DNA of 20,747 nt. It comes from a virus. The notes below the pieces were generated by a model that ran no database searches, was not told where the DNA came from, and saw nothing but the letters and a program-made list of their open reading frames with translations. Numbering within the stretch: the stretch's first letter is position 1; each line of letters starts with the position of its first letter. Shown piece after piece: positions 1-20,147 of the stretch. The stretch is from the IMG/VR virus record IMGVR_UViG_3300032118_003139, positions 1-20,747 of that record; one strand, written 5' to 3'. Position numbers and translations under genes: made by a program.

Positions 1-798
1 ATGCCGGAGAAGTACGTCTGCTACTCCACCAACGAGGTCGCGATGTACGCCTGGTTCGTCCCGCTCACCGCGCTGATGTGGCGGGAGGTCGCGGGTTACC
101 GCTCCATCGTCGCCGCGGTGGGGGACGTTCCGTCCCTCGTGCTCGACGCGGCCGCGGAGGTCGGGGCGCGGGTCGTCCCGGTCGCGCCGGTCAAGTGCTG
201 CGGCGGCGGGACGCTGTCCCAGATCGTGCGCCTGTTCGCCTACCTGGCCCCGGGCGTCGAGCCCGAGGACTACGTCCTGCTGGGCGATGCCGACGCCTGG
301 CCGCTGCAGGAGTTCGCCTTTCGCCCCGCGACCGAGGACCTGTTCCTGATGTACGCCGATTGGGTGACGTCCTACCCCATCGGCTACATCGGGGCCCGCG
401 CGCGCGTGTGGCGCGACATCGTCAGGATCCACGCCCCCACCATGGGTGAAGCGGTCGAGGAGTTGTTCCTGACCGACCCCGTGCTGGCGGACGGGAGGAG
501 CGACGGCTGGAACTACGACGAGGCCTGCATCACCGCCATGATCAAGGCTTGGCGCGGGTTCCCTGGGCGGACCCAGCTCGTCCCCCGCAGCGGCGACCCC
601 ATCGCCGGGCGCATCGACCGCGCCGCGTGGCCCGCCGACCCGCGCGTCGACGGCATGATCGATGCGCATCTGCTCCGGCCCGGCTGGACCGATGAAAACT
701 GGCCGCGTCTCCGCCCTTTGCTCGCGCAGCTCCTCCCCCCGGGCTGGCTCGCCTGGGCCGACGCCTACCGGGACGGGTGGGTGAAGGATCATCCGTGA
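1..798 (+). CDS. Putative glycosyltransferase-like protein (DxD type)
   Basis: A 265-residue protein is read from an ATG at the first base of the window, so a longer true start upstream cannot be excluded. The N-terminal half looks like an alternating strand/helix nucleotide-sugar binding fold. It includes YVLLGDADAWPL (about residues 92-103), a DxD-type metal/nucleotide-sugar motif placed as in GT-A enzymes. The opening YSTNE...WFVPLTALMW resembles a family of uncharacterised glycosyltransferase-like proteins found in phages and polysaccharide clusters. No signal peptide or membrane segment is seen. The stop overlaps the GTG of the next gene (GTGA), so the two are probably translationally coupled and co-regulated. 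The class is inferred from the motif and from neighbouring transferase genes; donor and acceptor are unknown. Confidence 0.55.
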   Translation: MPEKYVCYSTNEVAMYAWFVPLTALMWREVAGYRSIVAAVGDVPSLVLDAAAEVGARVVPVAPVKCCGGGTLSQIVRLFAYLAPGVEPEDYVLLGDADAWPLQEFAFRPATEDLFLMYADWVTSYPIGYIGARARVWRDIVRIHAPTMGEAVEELFLTDPVLADGRSDGWNYDEACITAMIKAWRGFPGRTQLVPRSGDPIAGRIDRAAWPADPRVDGMIDAHLLRPGWTDENWPRLRPLLAQLLPPGWLAWADAYRDGWVKDHP

Positions 799-1631
799 GC
801 CTGCCGCGCGTCATCAGCCTGGCCCTGTTCCGCCCGCTGCCCGGGGAGCACCGGCACGCCGACGCCCTCGACCACTTCCCGCGCTTCCTGCCCGCGCTCC
901 TGCGGGCGGCCCGGGAGCTGTTCCGCGGCTGGGAGGTCTGGGTCCACCACGACGACGGCTTGGACTCGTGCTACTACGGGTCGACCCTCAAGCTTCTCGC
1001 GCGGCAGGGCTACCTCCGGCTCGTCTACTGCGGACCTGTCGCCGCCCTGTGCCACGCGATGCTCTGGCGCCTCTACCCGGCGCTCGATGGCGCGGCCGAG
1101 CACGTCCTCTGCCGGGATCTGGACTCGCTCGCCACGCCGCGCGAGCGGCACGCGGTCGAGGGTTGGCTCCGGTCGGGCCGGGCGCTCCACGTCATGCACG
1201 ACCACGCGCACCACGCGAGCCCGGGCGCGCGGGCATTCATCCCGGGGGGAATGTTCGGCCTCCACGTCCCGGCCTTCCGCCACCTCACCGGGCTCACCAA
1301 CATGCGACAGCTCCTCGTCCACGCGCAGCAGCTCGGCGTTAGCCTGCACGCCAAGGGGGACGATCAGGTCGTGCTCAACAGCTTGCTGCCGCCCCTGATC
1401 GGTGACGATTACCTGCTTCACGCCTACGACCCGGGCACCGGGCACGCCGCGGTGGACCCGGTGGCACTCCCGGGTGTGGACAAGCGGGCGCTGGCGCGGG
1501 GCAACGCATTGACCCCCTACACCGGGGGCGTGTTCGACGTCGCCCCGGTGGTGGCCTTCTACAACCAGCTCCCTAGCTCCAACCCGATCCACTGGGCGGA
1601 GCAGCAGACCGGCGAGGCGGTCCCCCATTGA
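795..1631 (+). CDS. Putative glycosyltransferase-like protein with RDLDS motif
   Basis: The chosen start is the GTG at 795, which overlaps the preceding stop as GTGA, in preference to an in-frame ATG at 777; it gives 278 residues. The centre carries VLCRDLDSLATPRERHAVEG and then HVMHDHAHH and a GGMFG segment. This order (RDxDS, RE, a W/S helix, a His-rich DH, a GG(M/W)G turn) matches a family of nucleotide-diphospho-sugar-transferase-like proteins in which RDLDS serves as the DxD metal motif. A later GDDQVVLN resembles the acidic acceptor-side segment of GT-A enzymes. It lies between two other transferase-like genes in an overlapping chain, supporting a joint role in sugar decoration. Substrates cannot be read from the sequence. 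Confidence 0.6.
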   Translation: MSLPRVISLALFRPLPGEHRHADALDHFPRFLPALLRAARELFRGWEVWVHHDDGLDSCYYGSTLKLLARQGYLRLVYCGPVAALCHAMLWRLYPALDGAAEHVLCRDLDSLATPRERHAVEGWLRSGRALHVMHDHAHHASPGARAFIPGGMFGLHVPAFRHLTGLTNMRQLLVHAQQLGVSLHAKGDDQVVLNSLLPPLIGDDYLLHAYDPGTGHAAVDPVALPGVDKRALARGNALTPYTGGVFDVAPVVAFYNQLPSSNPIHWAEQQTGEAVPH

Positions 1632-2137
1632 ACGACTACGCCACTCATCAGCCCGTGCTCTTGGCCGCGCTCGCGGCGACCGAGGGCCCCGTCTTGGAAT
1701 GCGGGGCCGGTCATTACTCGACCCCGCTCCTGCACGCCTATTGCGCCCCGACCCTGCGGTCTCTGATCACTCTGGAGGACGACCCCACCTGGATCGAGGC
1801 CTACGCCTACCTCCGCTCCTTCTGGCACGACGTCGACCTCGTGCCGGACTGGGACGGGCTCGGCACCGGGCAATACGACGTCGCGTTCGTCGATCACCGG
1901 GCGGAGGCGCGCGTCCCGACCATGCTGCACCTTCGCGAGCGGGCGCGGTTCATCGTGGCCCACGACACCGAGGCCGCCTGCTACGGCTACGCCGCCGCCT
2001 GGCCCGCCTTCGACTGGGTGTGGACCTTCGCCCGCTACAACACCTGGGCCTCCATCTGCGGGATGGGGGACCCGCCGCACTGGCTTGAGGACGCGCTCTC
2101 GCCTGGGGTCGCCGGGCCGCCGAAGCCCTACCGATGA
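1628..2137 (+). CDS. SAM-dependent methyltransferase-like protein
   Basis: This 169-residue protein starts at a TTG that overlaps the previous stop (TTGA). PVLECGAGHYSTPLLH near the N-terminus resembles class I methyltransferase motif I (the glycine-rich SAM loop), and an acidic LEDDP follows at the end of the next strand. YDVAFVDH and ARFIVAHDTE look like motif IV/V strands, and a YGY plus aromatic tail follows. The order matches a little-studied phage and glycan-cluster family with LELGxGxYSTPLLH and xxVIHDSE. It is short for a complete methyltransferase, so it may be a minimal fold or a related non-methylating enzyme. The downstream gene starts by ATGA overlap. By context it may methylate the glycan or acceptor handled by the flanking glycosyltransferases; this is inference. 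Confidence 0.55.
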   Translation: MNDYATHQPVLLAALAATEGPVLECGAGHYSTPLLHAYCAPTLRSLITLEDDPTWIEAYAYLRSFWHDVDLVPDWDGLGTGQYDVAFVDHRAEARVPTMLHLRERARFIVAHDTEAACYGYAAAWPAFDWVWTFARYNTWASICGMGDPPHWLEDALSPGVAGPPKPYR

Positions 2138-3006
2138 TCACCGTCCTCTACCCCACCTGCCGCGGGCCCCACGCGCTCGCCGACCAACCGGACCTGAGCC
2201 AGTACGACCTGCTGGAGATGTCCCTGCGGGAGCAACGGTTCACCGACTTCGAGCTGATCATCGTGCAGGACGGGCCCGAGGCGGAGCACGACGTGCGCGG
2301 CTTCGGCTGGCTCGGCGACCGCTTCCGGGTCGTGCGGGCGCGGCGGACGCCGTGGCGCGACCGGGGGGCGTTCTGCCCGGCCTCGGCGCGGAACCGGGGG
2401 CTGCGGGAGGCGCGCGGCGACCTGGTGCTCGGGCTCGACGACTGCACCTCCTTCGACCCCTTCCTGCTGGAGCTGGCCGCCGGCTACGCGCAGAGCCAGC
2501 GCTACCTGTCCGTGGTCTGCTACCCGGCCGCGCGGGAGCCGCCCCCGCGGCATCAGCTCGTGCAGCCGCAGTCGCTCGCGGGGGGCATCCTCTCCTACCC
2601 CCGGGAGCGGGCGCTCGCGGTCGGGGGGCACGAGGAGCGGTTCGACGGCGCCATGGCGCTGGAGGATTGGGAGTTCAGCGCGCGGCTCGGCGTCTCGTTC
2701 TACATGGACGCGGCCGCGCGCGTGGCCCTGCACCTGCACGAGGGGCGGCGGCGGCTGTCCTTCCGTTGCTGCCACGCGGTCTGGGCGCTGCTCCGCCGGC
2801 AGCCGCGCGGGAACGTGCCCTGGACGGAGGAGCAGCGCGTGGCGTTCGGGGAGTGGTGCCCGTACGCCGGGGAGCGCGACGGGCCGAACCTGCACTGCGG
2901 CGTCAACGGCGGGATGTGCGATCACCGGGAGCGACCGGATGCCGAGGCCCGCGCCATCATCGCGGGCTACGAGTCCGCCCCGTGGGACCCGTTCGGGGTT
3001 GACTGA
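2134..3006 (+). CDS. Family 2-like (GT-A) glycosyltransferase
   Basis: The 290-residue protein begins by ATGA overlap with the methyltransferase-like gene. It opens ITVLYPTCRGP, a typical GT2 first strand, followed by ELIIVQDGPE as the second strand with its acidic residue. CPASARNRGLREARGDLVLG then leads into LDDCTSFDP, the DxD region that would bind the metal and sugar nucleotide. MALEDWEFSARLG (about residues 174-186) is the ED motif containing the usual catalytic base of GT2 enzymes. The C-terminal 80 residues are Arg/Cys-rich and not recognised. No membrane helix is seen, so it is probably soluble. This is the clearest glycosyltransferase of the cassette; the transferred sugar is unknown. 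Confidence 0.75.
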   Translation: MITVLYPTCRGPHALADQPDLSQYDLLEMSLREQRFTDFELIIVQDGPEAEHDVRGFGWLGDRFRVVRARRTPWRDRGAFCPASARNRGLREARGDLVLGLDDCTSFDPFLLELAAGYAQSQRYLSVVCYPAAREPPPRHQLVQPQSLAGGILSYPRERALAVGGHEERFDGAMALEDWEFSARLGVSFYMDAAARVALHLHEGRRRLSFRCCHAVWALLRRQPRGNVPWTEEQRVAFGEWCPYAGERDGPNLHCGVNGGMCDHRERPDAEARAIIAGYESAPWDPFGVD

Positions 3007-5142: not shown

Positions 5143-6048
5143 ATGGACGACCAGGGAGCCGCCTTGCTCAAGGGGAACTCAGTGCTCATCCCGATCCGCA
5201 TGAGCCTCAGCATGGAGGACCCGTTCTCCGTCGTCCCGCCGGCCGCAGCGGAGAAGGCTGACCCCACGACGATCCAGACGCTCATCTTCGACAAGGACAA
5301 GTTCAAGTCGGTCGCCGACGCGAAGGCCTGGGCGCGCGACCACGACTTTAAGGCCCCGGAGGTCGACGAGACCGAGGACTCCTACCGGCTGCGGCAGAAG
5401 GAGCCGGGCACGTTCGCCGAGGGGAGCATGCGGACCATCACGCTCAAACCCGGCGTCAAGGCGGTCATCGGTCGCCTGAAGAAGCGCGACGGCGATGCCG
5501 CCTGCTATTACTGCGGCAGCGCGATGACGAAGGCCGAGGCCGCCGAGGTCTGGTGGTGTGCGCGCTGCGGCGCCTCCGTGGTCGGCAACCCCGCCCCCCC
5601 GCTCGCGGGCGAGGTGGCGAAGCAGACGAGCGGCGAGAACGTCGCGAAGGTCGTCCCGCTGATCAAGGCCGATGAGGAACGCTACGCGCTCGGCGTGGTG
5701 CTGGTCCCCGAGGAGGTCGACTCGCAGGGGGACATCTACTCCGACGTCGAGGTCAAGCAGGCCGCGCACCGCTTCATGGAGGAGTACCAGACCGTGGGGC
5801 TGATGCACCGGGAGAAGGCCGAGCAGGTGCGGATCGTCGAGAGCTTCGTCGCCCCCGCCGACTTCCAGGTCGGGGACAACGCGATCAAGAAGGGCACCTG
5901 GCTCCTCGGCCTGCACGTCACCGACGACGCCGTGTGGAAGGCGGTCAAGGCGGGCGAGCTGACCGGGCTCTCTATCGGAGGCTCCGCCGTCCGCTACCCC
6001 TCCACCGACCCGGACAAGATCCCCACGCAGGCCGGCGATGCGGCCTGA
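5143..6048 (+). CDS. XkdF-like prohead protease, copy 1, with zinc-ribbon insertion
   Basis: A 301-residue protein with GGGAGG six bases before its ATG. Residues about 47-112 (FDKDKF..A.AWARDH...YRLRQKEPGTF...GVKAVIG) form a small N-terminal domain often seen in phage capsid-maturation proteins. A four-cysteine zinc ribbon follows (C121, C124, C139, C142). Residues about 178-285 are an XkdF-like serine protease domain, with VDSQGD (193-197), candidate catalytic His222 in LMHRE and candidate Ser277 in GLSIGG. Such proteases cleave scaffold and capsid termini inside the prohead. The protein stops soon after GLSIGGSAVR and lacks the EVSLVDxPAN-type segment that normally completes the fold. Its protease domain is about three quarters identical, by hand alignment, to the next gene, which overlaps it by 11 bases. 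Confidence 0.8.
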   Translation: MDDQGAALLKGNSVLIPIRMSLSMEDPFSVVPPAAAEKADPTTIQTLIFDKDKFKSVADAKAWARDHDFKAPEVDETEDSYRLRQKEPGTFAEGSMRTITLKPGVKAVIGRLKKRDGDAACYYCGSAMTKAEAAEVWWCARCGASVVGNPAPPLAGEVAKQTSGENVAKVVPLIKADEERYALGVVLVPEEVDSQGDIYSDVEVKQAAHRFMEEYQTVGLMHREKAEQVRIVESFVAPADFQVGDNAIKKGTWLLGLHVTDDAVWKAVKAGELTGLSIGGSAVRYPSTDPDKIPTQAGDAA

Positions 6049-6709
6049 CCTCGAGAAGCGCATCCCCATCGTGAAGGGCGAGGACGAGCAGTACGTGCTC
6101 GGAGTCGTCCTCGTGCCCGAGGAGGTCGACTCCCAGGGCGACGTCTACTCCGCGGAGGAGGTGCGTCGGGCGGCCCACCGCTTCATGGAGGAGTATCAGA
6201 CCGTAGGCGTCATGCACCGCGAGGGGGCGGGCCCGCAGACGCGCGTGGTCGAGAGCTACGTGGCGCCCGTCGACTTCCAGGTCGGCGAATACTACATCAA
6301 GCAGGGGACCTGGCTCCTCGGCATCCACGTCGACGACCTGGGCCTGTGGCGGGCGATCAAGGCGGGCGAGTTGACGGGCCTGAGCATCGGTGGCTCCGCC
6401 GTGCGGCGCCCGGTCGAGTTCCCCAACGCGGCCGAGATCGCCACGGGCGAGCCCACGCTGAACCCGATGCCCCGGCAGATGCAGGGGGCCGAGCAGAAGT
6501 TCACCCCCGAGCAGGCGCGGGCGGTCGGCGACCGCCTCGGCGTTGACTGGGACGCGATCGACGCGGAGCAGTTCCGCCTGGGGCTGGGCGTTGAGATGGA
6601 GCACTGGGCGACGGCGGGGCACGACCTCGACACCATCGGGCGGATCGTGCTCGACCACCTCGCGGAGGACCCCTTCTACTACGCCAAGCTGGACCGCGCG
6701 AACCTGTGA
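6038..6709 (+). CDS. XkdF-like prohead protease, copy 2, with DUF5661-like C-terminal domain
   Basis: A 223-residue paralogue of the preceding gene, starting 11 bases inside it with no strong ribosome site, so probably coupled. Residues about 17-123 repeat the protease domain with VDSQGD, His60 in VMHRE and Ser116 in GLSIGG all kept. It has neither the N-terminal small domain nor the zinc ribbon of copy 1. Residues about 155-221 (FTPEQARAVGDRLGVDW, EQFRLGLGVEMEHW, HLAEDPFYYAKLDR) resemble DUF5661, a small helical domain common in phage and mobile-element proteins. Both copies keep the candidate catalytic residues, so either could be active. Copy 2 could instead be a regulator or virion component. 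The gene ends just before a promoter-like element. Confidence 0.78.
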   Translation: MRPDLEKRIPIVKGEDEQYVLGVVLVPEEVDSQGDVYSAEEVRRAAHRFMEEYQTVGVMHREGAGPQTRVVESYVAPVDFQVGEYYIKQGTWLLGIHVDDLGLWRAIKAGELTGLSIGGSAVRRPVEFPNAAEIATGEPTLNPMPRQMQGAEQKFTPEQARAVGDRLGVDWDAIDAEQFRLGLGVEMEHWATAGHDLDTIGRIVLDHLAEDPFYYAKLDRANL

Positions 6710-15880: not shown

Positions 15881-16354
15881 ATGGCAATCACCGGACAGCC
15901 CAAGACCTTCTACAGCTCGCGCAACTTCCGCGTGCTCATCCCCGGGGTCGGCTCAGCCGACTTCTCGAAGATGGACTGGGCGGGGCTCGAGGCGGAGGTC
16001 GCCGAGCACTACGAGGGCGCCTCGGTCGTGCCCGCATCGCAGTTCGTGGGCAAGCAGAAAGTGAACCCGGCCACGCTGGAGCGCGGCGTGACCGACTCGA
16101 CCGACCTCTACGACTGGTTCCTCCTGTGCTCGAACGCGGCCGCCACGCGCGGGCTCAACGAGGAGAAGTACAAGCGGGAGGTCACCGTCCAGCAGCTTGA
16201 CCACGAGGGCGTGCCGAAGTTCGGCTGGGTCTTTCACGAGGCCTTCGCGCCCAAGTTCGAGCCGACCTCGGGCGGGTTCGACTCCGAGGGGGGGAAGCAC
16301 GCCATCGAACGCGTCACCATCCACTACAAGTGGGCGGAGCGCATCACCTTCTAG
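15881..16354 (+). CDS. Tail tube protein (T4 gp19-like)
   Basis: A 157-residue protein with AAGGAG seven bases upstream. It opens with TFYSSRNFRVLIPGVGSADFSKMDWAGLEAEV, the 'F.V.i.G...gFsev.GL..ev' pattern of T4 gp19-type tube subunits. Later come TDLYDWFLLCSNAA, YKREVTVQQLDHEG, KFGWVFHEAFAPKFEPTSGG and a final strand AIERVTIHYKWAER. All are expected of the family (helix, strand, 'w.f..a.p.k....dl....n.vaiE.v.l.h...'). These subunits stack as hexamer rings to form the inner tube. It sits directly after the sheath gene, as usual in myoviruses. Confidence 0.88.
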   Translation: MAITGQPKTFYSSRNFRVLIPGVGSADFSKMDWAGLEAEVAEHYEGASVVPASQFVGKQKVNPATLERGVTDSTDLYDWFLLCSNAAATRGLNEEKYKREVTVQQLDHEGVPKFGWVFHEAFAPKFEPTSGGFDSEGGKHAIERVTIHYKWAERITF

Positions 16355-16403: not shown

Positions 16404-17225
16404 ATGTCAAAAGTGATCACCTGTCCGTCCGGGCTGCAGGGGGAGATCCGCACGCTGACCGGCGCGGAGCTGAAGTTGTTCGGCAACCGCAAGCTCGCGC
16501 GCACCGGGCAAACCTTCACCGACATCCTCAAGGGCTGCTGGCTCGCGACCGTCGATCCGGGGCCCTACGGCAAGTCGGGGACCGACGCCGCGGGCAAGGT
16601 CCCGCCCCCGGACTGGTCGAAGGTCCTGACCGGGGACTTAATGTTCGCCTTCATCGAGATCAGGAAGCTCGGCTGGGGCAGCCCCTACGACTTCACCTTC
16701 CAGTGCGCGAACCGCTCGTGCCGGCAAGACCATCCCGACAGCACCGCCTGGTCGGTCCAGCTCGACGACCTGAAGGTCCGCGTGCTGACCCCCTACCTGC
16801 GGCGCGCCTTCATGGACGGGAACCGCGTCCCCTACATGTTTGGGGGCGTGCCCGTCGCTTACCGATTGATGACCTGGGCGGACGAGCGCGAGGCGGCGGG
16901 GCACCTCGAGCGGTACGGCGAGGACGACGACAACCGCGTCCTGGCCGCGATGGCGGAGCGGCTGGTCGAGGTCGAGGGGAACCCGCTGGCGCGGCTGGAC
17001 CGCATCGAGTGGCTGAACGGCATGCCCGCGCCCGACATCACCGACTTCCAGGAGCACCTGCTCGAGACCGACCCCGGGCCCGTGACCGGCATCGACGTGC
17101 AGTGCAAGTTCTGCAAGGGGCTGATCCACATCGACCTCCCTTTCGGCGAGAGCTGGTTCAAGAGGGCGCGAAAGGCCCCGCCCTCGGGGGACTCTTCGGC
17201 GGGGAGCGCGAGTACGACGAGCTAG
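16404..17225 (+). CDS. T4 gp26-like baseplate protein / tail assembly chaperone (zero frame)
   Basis: A 273-residue protein after an AAAGGGG site. The opening ITCPSGLQGEIRTLTGAEL and the segments GCWLATVDPGPYG, DWSKVLTGDLMFAFIEIR and GSPYDFTFQC are typical of the T4 gp26-like family (T4 base plate protein). Two cysteine pairs, C101/C106 and C234/C237, probably bind zinc, and HIDLPFG near the end is also a family feature. It lies directly before the tape measure, where tail assembly chaperones are encoded. The last residues (SAGSASTTS) look non-conserved. In the -1 frame, conserved-looking coding sequence continues to 17392, implying programmed frameshifting. Confidence 0.75.
   Translation: MSKVITCPSGLQGEIRTLTGAELKLFGNRKLARTGQTFTDILKGCWLATVDPGPYGKSGTDAAGKVPPPDWSKVLTGDLMFAFIEIRKLGWGSPYDFTFQCANRSCRQDHPDSTAWSVQLDDLKVRVLTPYLRRAFMDGNRVPYMFGGVPVAYRLMTWADEREAAGHLERYGEDDDNRVLAAMAERLVEVEGNPLARLDRIEWLNGMPAPDITDFQEHLLETDPGPVTGIDVQCKFCKGLIHIDLPFGESWFKRARKAPPSGDSSAGSASTTS
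17186..17190 (+). promoter_or_regulatory. Candidate -1 ribosomal frameshift site (GGGGG)
   Basis: A run of five G is read in the zero frame as TC-G GGG GAC. A GGG-decoding tRNA can slip back one base onto another GGG, after which translation continues as GGA CTC TTC in the -1 frame. It is not a perfect XXXYYYZ heptamer, because the A-site pairing after slippage is imperfect. Another nearby possibility is CGA AAG G at 17169-17175. Confidence 0.4.
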
Positions 17226-17392
17226 CGTTCCTCCTCAAGTACCACCAGCACGGGGGCTCCGGGCTCCACATCACGCTCGACGAGATCGACGGCATGGACG
17301 TCGAGCGCATCCGTTGGTGGCTCGACCGCCTGATCCATCAACGCGAGGAAGAGGCCCGGTCGATCCGGCACGGGCACGGGCGCGGGGGCTGA
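17189..17392 (+). CDS. Frameshift extension of tail assembly chaperone (-1 frame)
   Basis: About 67 residues are readable in the -1 frame relative to the preceding gene, ending at TGA 17390-17392. The sequence YDELAFLLKYHQHGG, LDEIDGMDVERIRWWLDRL and HQREEEARS is a well-formed helical domain. It resembles the small second chaperone unit (a 'hh.g.s.deie.M..wei.w.l.rl..q' pattern) that follows gp26-like genes in other phages. No start codon with a ribosome site exists in this frame upstream of the conserved part; the first ATG is in DGMDVER. Production by frameshifting, giving a fusion of about 329 residues, is therefore most likely. Such fusions coat and guide the tape measure during tail assembly. 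Confidence 0.65.
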   Translation, partial: GLFGGEREYDELAFLLKYHQHGGSGLHITLDEIDGMDVERIRWWLDRLIHQREEEARSIRHGHGRGG

Positions 17393-17444: not shown

Positions 17445-20147
17445 GTGGCGATCACCGACCTGGGTCTAGGGTTCACCATCAGCGCGAAGGACGAAGCCTC
17501 CTCGGCCATGAGCAAGGTCGAGCATGGCTTCGACAAGATGGAGAAGGCCGCCGATCATGCCGGGCAGGGCATCGGCGAGGCCATGGCGCGGCTCAAGATG
17601 GGCGTCATGGAGCTGGCGATCGAGGGCGGACCCCTGGGCGGCCTGTTCAAGATGGCGGAGAAGGCGGCGGAGTTCAGCGACACCATCGAGCACGCCGGCC
17701 TGCGCACCGGCATGACCGAGCACCAGATGGAGAAGATGCGCGACGTCGCCCTGGACGCCGCTCTGAAGGGGACCGCCGTCAGCGCCCTCGAAGCGGGCGA
17801 GACGATGGAGACGTTCACGAAGTGGGGGCTGAACGCCAACGACGCGATGACCGCCCTCCAGCCCGCGCTCGCCCTGGCCTCGGTCTCGTTCGGCAAGCTG
17901 TCCAAGCCCGAGGCCGCGAAGACCCTGGCGATGCTCATGCGCCAGTTCAAGATCGGGGCGGACGAGGCGGGGATCACCGTCGACAAGATGACCGTCGGCA
18001 TGCAGGCGTTCAAGGTCCCGGTCGAGGAGATCCCCGAGCTGCTTCGCGGCGTCGGCCTGGGGGCGCAGGCGGCCAAGGCGAGCTTCGACGACACGCTGAT
18101 CACGTTGGGCCTGACCCGTGCCGGCGTGCCCGAGACGAGCCAGGCCATTCGCTCGGTCAACATGGCGATGATGCAGCTCGCCAGCCCGGGGATGCACAAG
18201 CGCATGCAGGCCGCGTTCAACGTCCCGCTCGAGGCCGGCGGCAAGATGCGCCCGGTCATCGATGTGCTCGGGGACATCGCCAAGAAGACTGCGGGGCTCA
18301 GCGAGGCGAAGCTGGCCGAGAACATGTCCAAGGTGTTCGGCCCCCGCGGGGTGGGCGGCATGAGCGTGATCATGGACACCCTGCGCAAGGGGATCACGAC
18401 CACGACCGGGGAGACGGTCAAGGGGGCCGAGGCCATCGACTACTACCGCCAGATGATGGAGCACTCCGGCGGGGCCGCCGAGGGGATGCGGAAGAAGCTC
18501 CGCGAGGACTTCGACGTCCAGGTGCGGAACGTGACCACCAAGCTGTCGACCCTGGTCTCCATCGTCGGGCAGCCGCTCGAGAAGATATTCCTGCCGATCC
18601 TCAAGCAGATCGCGGCCGGGCTGGCGAAGGTCGGGCAGTTCATCCGCGAGATCCCCGAGCCGATCAAGGACGTGACGGCGAAGGCCGCGATCCTCGTTGG
18701 GACCCTGCTCGCGCTTGATGGCATCTTCAAGATCCTGGCCGCCGTCATGCCGATGGTGACAGCCGGCCTGGGTGGGATCGCCTTGACGATGGGGAAGGTT
18801 ATGCTGGTCGGCGGACCCCTGATCCTGCTGGGGGCGGCGCTCTACTTTGCTTGGAAGAAGAACCTTGGCGGCGTGGGTGACTCAGTGACCGAGATGTTCG
18901 GAAAGGTGAAGCTCGCCTTTTCGGCGCTCTCCCAACTGGTTAGCCGCGGTTGGATCGACGAGAAGACCTTCAAGTCGCTCACCTCCGACGAGAACGCCGG
19001 CGTGCTCGGGTTCGTGCGCAAGGTGTGGCTGTGGGGGAACCGCATCAAGAACTTCCTCTCCGGCATGTGGGACGCGTTCCTCTCGGCCACCGAGAAGCTG
19101 GAGCCGGTGTTCGCCCGGCTCGGCGAGGCCTGGAACGTCCTCGCCGGAGCATTCGGGCTCAAGGCTGCGAACGACGTCAAGGCGAACGCGGCCGCGTTCG
19201 ATCAGTTCGGCGCCGCCGGCAGCAAGACGGGGAGCATCCTTGCCTCCATCGCGGGCGTGGGGGCCAAGTCCCTGACGATCGCCTTCGAGCAGCTCGCGGG
19301 CTTCGTCACGACCCTGCGCGCGGAATGGCCCGAGATGAAGCGCGCCTTCCTGGAGGGGGTCGGCGCGTTCAAGATCCTCGCCGGGGTCATCACCGAGGTC
19401 AAATCGGCGCTGGGGCTCACGCGTGACGAGACGAAGCAGTCGGGCGAGTGGTGGGAGACGTTTGGGGGCATCATCGCTAAGGTGGCCAGTTCGGTCGCCA
19501 CCAGCACCACGCGCATGTTGGCCCCGATTAGGATGTTCCTCACGGCGATCAAGTCGGTCGTGCTCGCCGCGGCGTACTGGTTCGGCAACCTCATCGACAT
19601 GTTCAAGGGGGTGGGGGAGTTCTTCGCCGGGGCGTTTACCGGGAATTGGGTGCGGGCCTGGGCCGGCTTCAAGAGCATTATCGTCAGCGCCGTGCGCGGC
19701 ATCATGGGTGTGCTTCTCTCCCTCGTCGAGGGCAGTCTGTCGGTGCTGAAGGTGCCCCTCAACATCATCGGCAAGGGTCACTTGGTGGAGGGCTGGCAGA
19801 AGTCGGTGACCGAGCTGCGCGGGAGCTTCCGCGCGGGAGAACGAGAGCGGATAGAGCCCGGCGCCGTGGGCCCGATGTCCATCGCGCAGCCCCTTACACC
19901 GGAGGGCCCCACGTCGATGCCGTTCGCGTCGTCCACCGAGGGAATCTCCACGGAGGCCATCGCGGCGATGAGTAACCAGAGCCATGCTGACCTGCAGGCC
20001 CTCCTCGTCGAGATCCGCAAGCGCGAGGCGATGAACGTGTCGCTCATGCTCGATCGGGAAAAGGTAGGAGCGGCGCAGGCGAGCTGGCAACGGGAAGAGG
20101 AAGTCAGCTCGTTCGCGCCCAACGTTTCGTTGGCTTCGGGGTACTGA
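17445..20147 (+). CDS. Tail tape measure protein
   Basis: A 900-residue protein starting at GTG with AGGAG seven bases before. The N-terminal 90 residues are helical. Residues about 100-320 have the TP901-type tape measure core (ALKGTAVSALEAGETMETF, GKLSKPEAAKTLAMLMRQF, AGVPETSQAIRSVNMAMMQL, PVIDVLGDIAKKTAGLSEAK, VFGPRGVGGMSVIMD). A hydrophobic stretch at about 412-470 contains two or three possible membrane-spanning helices, and another hydrophobic, aromatic region lies near 680-770. Both are typical of tape measures that enter the host membrane on ejection. It sets tail length and is assembled with the chaperones encoded just upstream. Its stop overlaps the next ATG (TGATG). Confidence 0.9.
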   Translation: MAITDLGLGFTISAKDEASSAMSKVEHGFDKMEKAADHAGQGIGEAMARLKMGVMELAIEGGPLGGLFKMAEKAAEFSDTIEHAGLRTGMTEHQMEKMRDVALDAALKGTAVSALEAGETMETFTKWGLNANDAMTALQPALALASVSFGKLSKPEAAKTLAMLMRQFKIGADEAGITVDKMTVGMQAFKVPVEEIPELLRGVGLGAQAAKASFDDTLITLGLTRAGVPETSQAIRSVNMAMMQLASPGMHKRMQAAFNVPLEAGGKMRPVIDVLGDIAKKTAGLSEAKLAENMSKVFGPRGVGGMSVIMDTLRKGITTTTGETVKGAEAIDYYRQMMEHSGGAAEGMRKKLREDFDVQVRNVTTKLSTLVSIVGQPLEKIFLPILKQIAAGLAKVGQFIREIPEPIKDVTAKAAILVGTLLALDGIFKILAAVMPMVTAGLGGIALTMGKVMLVGGPLILLGAALYFAWKKNLGGVGDSVTEMFGKVKLAFSALSQLVSRGWIDEKTFKSLTSDENAGVLGFVRKVWLWGNRIKNFLSGMWDAFLSATEKLEPVFARLGEAWNVLAGAFGLKAANDVKANAAAFDQFGAAGSKTGSILASIAGVGAKSLTIAFEQLAGFVTTLRAEWPEMKRAFLEGVGAFKILAGVITEVKSALGLTRDETKQSGEWWETFGGIIAKVASSVATSTTRMLAPIRMFLTAIKSVVLAAAYWFGNLIDMFKGVGEFFAGAFTGNWVRAWAGFKSIIVSAVRGIMGVLLSLVEGSLSVLKVPLNIIGKGHLVEGWQKSVTELRGSFRAGERERIEPGAVGPMSIAQPLTPEGPTSMPFASSTEGISTEAIAAMSNQSHADLQALLVEIRKREAMNVSLMLDREKVGAAQASWQREEEVSSFAPNVSLASGY

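Follow-up and report, generated by a model that had tools for sequence, protein, structure and literature searches.

A tail gene that directly precedes the tape measure gene of this phage very probably encodes two proteins: −1 programmed frameshifting at the heptamer C_CCT_TTC would yield, next to a zero-frame product of 273 amino acids, a fusion of 329 amino acids, the pair acting as a tail-assembly chaperone in the manner of lambda gpG/gpGT. Judged from sequence comparison, a gene of a known kind appears to carry a conserved −1 programmed frameshift, and it belongs to a protein family (PF12322) for which our search of the literature other than subscription papers returned no report of frameshifting. 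A widespread family annotated as baseplate hub would thereby count as probable frameshifted tail-assembly chaperones, whose precise slip site lends itself to testing, and annotators would gain a rule for recovering a small unit that is now omitted or called as a separate gene.

Locus and Gene Layout

The window analyzed here is a 20,747-base IMG/VR virus record, a single metagenomic contig that carries the structural genes (capsid, sheath, tube, a gp26-like gene, tape measure, and a CIS_tube-type gene) of a phage with a contractile tail. The gp26-like gene sits between the tube (PF06841) and tape measure (PF10145) genes. The features of this region are the following:

15881–16354, + strand: tail tube gene, immediately upstream of the gp26-like gene (PF06841, E 1.1e-19)
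16404–17225, + strand: zero-frame gp26-like gene, putative tail-assembly/hub chaperone, short form, gpG-like (273 aa, TAG stop; PHROG 150, E 3.5e-7)
16704–16721, + strand: first Cys pair, CANRSC, putative zinc ligand pair (C101 and C106 invariant in 56 sequences)
17103–17114, + strand: second Cys pair, CKFC, putative zinc ligand pair (C234 at least 90% conserved and C237 invariant in 56 sequences)
17138–17144, + strand: candidate slippery heptamer C_CCT_TTC (zero-frame codons CTC CCT TTC, 17136–17144; C_CCT_TTN in 87 of 92 distinct loci)
17144–17392, + strand: −1 frame unit 2, small helical domain, gpGT-like (82 codons, 17144–17389, plus TGA 17390–17392; PHROG 20255)
17145–17225, + strand: zero-frame tail of the unshifted product (poorly conserved; length and sequence vary among relatives)
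17169–17174, + strand: CGA AAG in the zero frame, a hexamer identical to the Bacillus subtilis cdd shift site (3 of 60 representatives)
17186–17190, + strand: GGGGG run (10 of 60 representatives; not conserved)
17445–20147, + strand: tape measure gene, GTG start, immediately downstream of the gp26-like gene (PF10145, E 1.9e-20)

The zero-frame ORF (16404–17225) overlaps a −1 frame containing LDEIDGMDVERIRWWLDRL, and unit 2 ends (at 17392) 52 bases before the start of the tape measure gene. Fusion after residue 247 gives a computed product of 329 aa versus 273 aa for the unshifted protein.

Two other parts of the window deserve a brief description. Four closely packed genes (1–3006) lie 5′ of the capsid genes; the last of them (2134–3006) encodes a family 2 glycosyltransferase (PF00535/PF10111), and the other three gave no Pfam match, some being glycosyltransferase-like by eye. 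This cluster possibly serves virion or host-surface glycosylation. Farther along, two tandem overlapping genes (5143–6048 and 6038–6709) each contain an XkdF-like protease domain, PF14550 (E 2.6e-30 and 9e-30).

The Zero-Frame Protein and Unit 2

The zero-frame gene belongs to the T4 gp26 family (PF12322, PHROG 150). By itself, the window protein gave no Pfam match; among its aligned family members, 52 of 56 matched PF12322 and 54 of 56 matched PHROG 150, and comparison of the window protein with T4 gp26 returned an hhalign E of 2.6e-6. In the alignment, T4 gp26 ends at the very point where the window family shifts. No similarity was detected between the gp26-like zero-frame protein and lambda gpG.

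An AlphaFold (AF2) model of the 273-aa protein had an overall pLDDT of 91.7 and was confident to about residue 250, compared with about 50 in the last two 10-residue blocks, that is, in the zero-frame tail. An earlier sequence-only reading of this DNA had described that tail as being of low quality, and the model agrees. The best structural matches of the model in BFVD were T4-like baseplate hub subunits (E 4e-14). A PDB fold search gave no significant result, solved gpG-type chaperones included; chaperone 2ob9 of HK97 ranked 2–3 in it, with a nonsignificant E of about 1.

Unit 2 was predicted by AF2 to fold alone into a small helical domain (pLDDT 84). It carries an HGGSG motif and matches PHROG 20255, a 63-residue family with no assigned function; searches for a Pfam family and for a significant BFVD fold match were negative.

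Conservation of the −1 Frame and of the Heptamer

No near relative emerged when the window gp26, unit 2, and sheath proteins were searched singly, and the gp26-like protein alone matched nothing closely in phage records and viral contigs. Relatives were fetched instead from viral contigs and genomes by means of capsid and sheath protein alignments, and because they were chosen by capsid or sheath similarity, the sampling of loci was independent of the frameshift. Most of the genome relatives belonged to the Myxococcota and Deltaproteobacteria, cultured strains of Myxococcus and Corallococcus among them. When all three forward frames were searched by profile, the two units were located together in 106 loci, of which 92 were distinct; 60 loci with less than 70% protein identity made up the representative set, and the alignment and its codon columns comprised 56 sequences. 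One gp26 alignment (A2) was excessively diverse and was dropped for pattern scanning.

In every one of the 92 distinct loci, unit 2 lay in the −1 frame and the overlap held an in-frame X_XXY_YYZ heptamer. This heptamer was C_CCT_TTN in 87 cases, nearly always at the conserved Leu-Pro-Phe/Leu codons (LPF/LPL) found 3′ of the second zinc-type Cys pair. The loci in which C_CCT_TTN was missing had A_AAT_TTT (L023, L164) or T_TTT_TTN, that is, T_TTT_TTC or T_TTT_TTT (L051, L214, L098), and in one locus (L102) C_CCT_TTC was present at a shifted position. Two complete loci whose unit 2 was missed by the profile (L153, L208) could be examined by inspection, and there too the −1 frame reads on. In 9 of the 60 representatives, the −1 frame opens just 3 nt 5′ of the heptamer, so that a shift farther upstream would meet a stop.

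The window heptamer, C_CCT_TTC at 17138–17144, is in the correct register for an X_XXY_YYZ −1 shift. Taken alone, the window proves little, because 20% of the synonymous shuffles of its gene carry such a heptamer within the last 41 codons; nor does an open −1 frame in GC-rich DNA mean much by itself. The significance of the window heptamer comes from the sequence conservation seen among its relatives.

Codon-Level Selection on the Proposed Slip Site

The codon choices at the putative slip site point clearly to strong selection on the heptamer. The Pro246 codon was CCT in 52 of 56 genes (8.9 expected, z 16.1), and the Leu245 codon was CTC in 46 of 50 (z 8.0). Over 73 conserved columns of the same genes, these two positions showed the strongest codon bias, the next one having a z of 3.3, and at the other conserved Pro columns CCT was rare, being used 2–9 times. 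Thirteen representatives have Leu instead of Phe at the heptamer, and 11 of them encode it by TTA or TTG; the remaining two (L023, L098) use CTN, and both have another heptamer nearby. The joint probability of the observed codons was ~1e-82 (60 representatives, per-locus codon usage), a naive figure that ignores shared ancestry and site choice; the 73-column internal control treats ancestry better.

A conserved stimulatory stem-loop was sought downstream of the heptamer in the relatives, and none was found. The downstream folding of the relatives had a mean z of −0.49, marginally stronger than the −0.08 of control stretches, and the window's own downstream folding had a z of +1.7. Many relatives have a Shine–Dalgarno-like site at about −12 to −15 nt; it is not present in the window, whose best such site lies about 24 nt upstream.

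Other Candidate Slip Sites and Possible Separate Initiation

The sequence-only reading had taken the GGGGG run, which it correctly located at 17186–17190 within the overlap, for a noncanonical slip site. Slippage of the ribosome or of RNA polymerase at this run would be compatible with G_GGG_GAC standing in the zero frame and with the use of G runs in annotated actinophage chaperone genes, where the motif is GGGGGAA (PMC10274946). However, just 10 of the 60 representatives have a GGGGG on the stretch from the heptamer to the zero-frame stop, whereas the conserved site, 42 nt upstream of the run, is a canonical X_XXY_YYZ heptamer, C_CCT_TTC, under strong codon-level selection. We therefore rejected the G run as the main slip site, owing to its low conservation, and consider this explanation highly improbable; minor extra slippage at GGGGG may take place in the window phage. 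Slippage of the transcript at CCCTTTC is unlikely, because the heptamer contains no run longer than three.

Because the slip site moved from the G run to the heptamer, two details of the earlier description change: the −1 continuation, correctly recognized as a helical unit containing LDEIDGMDVERIRWWLDRL, is 82 codons long rather than about 67, and the predicted junction peptide becomes DLPF-RRELVQEG in place of PPSG-GLFGG. The interval originally assigned to the frameshift, 17150–17392, also omits the slip site, the heptamer lying just 5′ of it.

Slightly less probable again is single-tRNA −1 slippage at CGA AAG (17169–17174), as at the cdd shift site of B. subtilis (named in the reference list of PMC5009743), with the AAGAGGG just upstream helping. 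The window does contain the exact hexamer in the zero frame, preceded by this Shine–Dalgarno-like sequence, but an in-frame CGA AAG is found in 3 of the 60 representatives, and on account of such low conservation it was rejected as the main slip site.

Unit 2 might instead be a separate small gene with its own, possibly nonstandard, start and no fusion, an explanation to which we give still less credit than to the CGA AAG site. It would fit the public records of BRock, LuckySocke, GiJojo, and SP-15, in which the counterpart is a separate ORF, as well as the 63-residue length of PHROG 20255. In the window, however, no ATG, GTG, or TTG occurs from the slip site to the conserved core of unit 2, the first being ATG 17294, inside the core; the sequence-only reading had indeed described this unit as having no start of its own. 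That reading had regarded relatives with a separately started second unit as the contrary case, and we found that 34 of the 60 representatives have no unit 2 start codon at all. Moreover, separate initiation would leave both the invariant −1 frame and the selection for CCT unexplained.

A sequencing or assembly error, or a decayed gene, could be suspected in a single metagenomic contig, and an error had been mentioned at the outset as one way to remove the frame change; this explanation has a practically negligible probability and is already refuted by the relatives, which show the same −1 arrangement in 92 of 92 distinct loci, those of cultured Myxococcus and Corallococcus genomes included.

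Proposed Mechanism and Role

We propose that −1 frameshifting takes place at C_CCU_UUC, where some of the ribosomes on the gp26-like gene would step back by one base, the P-site Pro tRNA re-pairing with CCC instead of CCU and the A-site Phe tRNA with UUU instead of UUC. The slipped ribosomes would then enter the −1 frame and produce the 329-residue fusion, beside the 273-residue zero-frame protein. The sequence comparisons show the anatomy of the overlap, the conservation of the frame, the codon selection, and the family membership; the slippage itself and its ratio are inferred.

If lambda gpG/gpGT is taken as the model, the N-terminal part common to both forms may coat the tape measure protein encoded by the neighboring gene, while the rarer long form may recruit tail tube subunits through the −1 helical unit, both binding events being presumed from the lambda case. 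Recruitment of these subunits would in turn allow the tube to polymerize to the right length. The chaperone role of the gp26-like protein is putative and is based on gene position and family.

Several traits are common to the window gene and to lambda gpG/gpGT and its counterparts in P2, HK97, and actinophages. The gene directly precedes the tape measure gene, a −1 shift near the 3′ end of the short gene would give a longer, rarer form, and unit 2 is not separately initiated. The general proposal of the sequence-only reading, namely, that a −1 shift appends a helical C-terminal unit to a zinc-ribbon-type chaperone of the gp26 kind encoded 5′ of the tape measure gene, is the one we retain. Unlike lambda gpG, the zero-frame protein of the window is a zinc-ribbon-type homologue of T4 gp26. 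The slip motifs differ as well, being C_CCU_UUN in the window clade and G_GGA_AAG in lambda, and the window has no clear stimulator.

Sharma et al. 2014 (PMC4066793) report that C_CC.U_UU.C supports high-level −1 frameshifting in Escherichia coli, and they rank H_HH.U_UU.Y with the most efficient classes of motif. The C_CC.U_UU.N heptamers of that study are identical in type to that of the window, although they were placed in artificial reporters, whereas the window heptamer belongs to a phage tail gene.

Other Phages of the gp26 Family

In isolated phages of the gp26 family, unit 2 is likewise out of frame and there is one gp26-type gene. Like the window, Bacillus SP-15, Listeria LIS04, the Streptomyces BRock group, Microcystis Mel-JY01, Agrobacterium Atu_ph07, and uncultured jumbo phages have a single such gene followed by an out-of-frame, homologous unit 2; the unit 2 profile of these other phages, compared with that of the window clade, gave an hhalign probability of 95 (E 1.8e-8). 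Atu_ph07 and LR756511 have unit 2 in the −1 frame, at T_TTT_TTC. In contrast to the −1 shift of the window clade, unit 2 is in the +1 (equivalently −2) frame in SP-15, LIS04, GXN1, LR756508, Mel-JY01, and the BRock group.

Four Streptomyces BRock-like records (L002, L004, L005, L006) have unit 2 in +1 (or −2) where the gp26-like gene ends, and their zero-frame stop lies in a conserved GAACTCTGA/TAA. This is likely an unannotated +1/−2 frameshift; the records show a small separate gene starting 3′ of the conserved unit-2 sequence, or none (pSt2308). SP-15, LIS04, and Streptococcus GXN1 (L223, L228, L229) have a conserved CC CGA TTY at the zero-frame end and unit 2 in +1. The CGA codon of these phages is a candidate +1 shift site, and SP-15 has a GAATTTTTT run just upstream.

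A different chaperone family, PHROG 5088, is represented by genes 16 and 17 of Arthrobacter phage Bolt007 (L003:7978–8705), where a second ORF overlaps in −1. The two are annotated as separate genes, not as a frameshift.

T4 gp26 and gp51

Among long-tailed phages, frameshifting is widespread in the gene that precedes the tape measure gene, being −1, −2, or +1 according to lineage, “except T4” (PMC5009743). T4 and the window gene have the family PF12322 in common, but T4 has two adjacent paralogous genes, gp26 and the longer gp51, with no known frameshift, whereas the window has one gene and a frameshift. T4 genes 26 and 51 (L222:4803–6229) both encode full-length PF12322 members (E 8.8e-64 and 3.9e-52), homologous to each other across all of gp26 (probability 99, E 3.3e-18), and gp51 has about 48 extra C-terminal residues, in frame.

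It would appear that T4 replaced the frameshift by gene duplication. More broadly, we consider it fairly likely that the whole PF12322 family is the contractile-tail counterpart of lambda gpG/gpGT, with most members having one frameshifted gene (−1 or +1 by lineage) that gives a short and a long form, and T4-like phages having paralogues, gp26 as the short form and gp51 as the long form with unit 2 in frame. The weak link of this T4 reading is the presumed homology of the C-terminal part of gp51 to unit 2: comparison through an intermediate set was suggestive (probability 41, E 2.9e-4), and direct comparison with the window-clade unit 2 was not significant.

Both T4 proteins, gp26 and gp51, appear in PMC3004832 as chaperones of hub assembly, with the tape measure gp29 as a component of the T4 hub. 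Should the T4 reading be true, it would explain why T4 is missing a frameshift when compared to other long-tailed phages, and it would offer gp26 and gp51, so far known just as hub assembly chaperones, a role as the short and long tape-measure chaperone.

The duplication reading therefore predicts one PF12322 gene in frameshift phages and two in T4-like phages. Two such genes, gp26 and a gp51 whose C-terminal extension is in frame, were counted in each of seven whole T4-like records (T4 itself and further records, L234–L239, being of this kind). In the window clade, where contigs may be incomplete, the A4 profile identified exactly one in 16 of 16 contigs; in one of these contigs that gene also contains a further, weaker PF12322 stretch, and another has a weak stray PF12322 match elsewhere. 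Eleven other phages have one such gene each, ten as judged by PF12322 and Mel-JY01 by A4.
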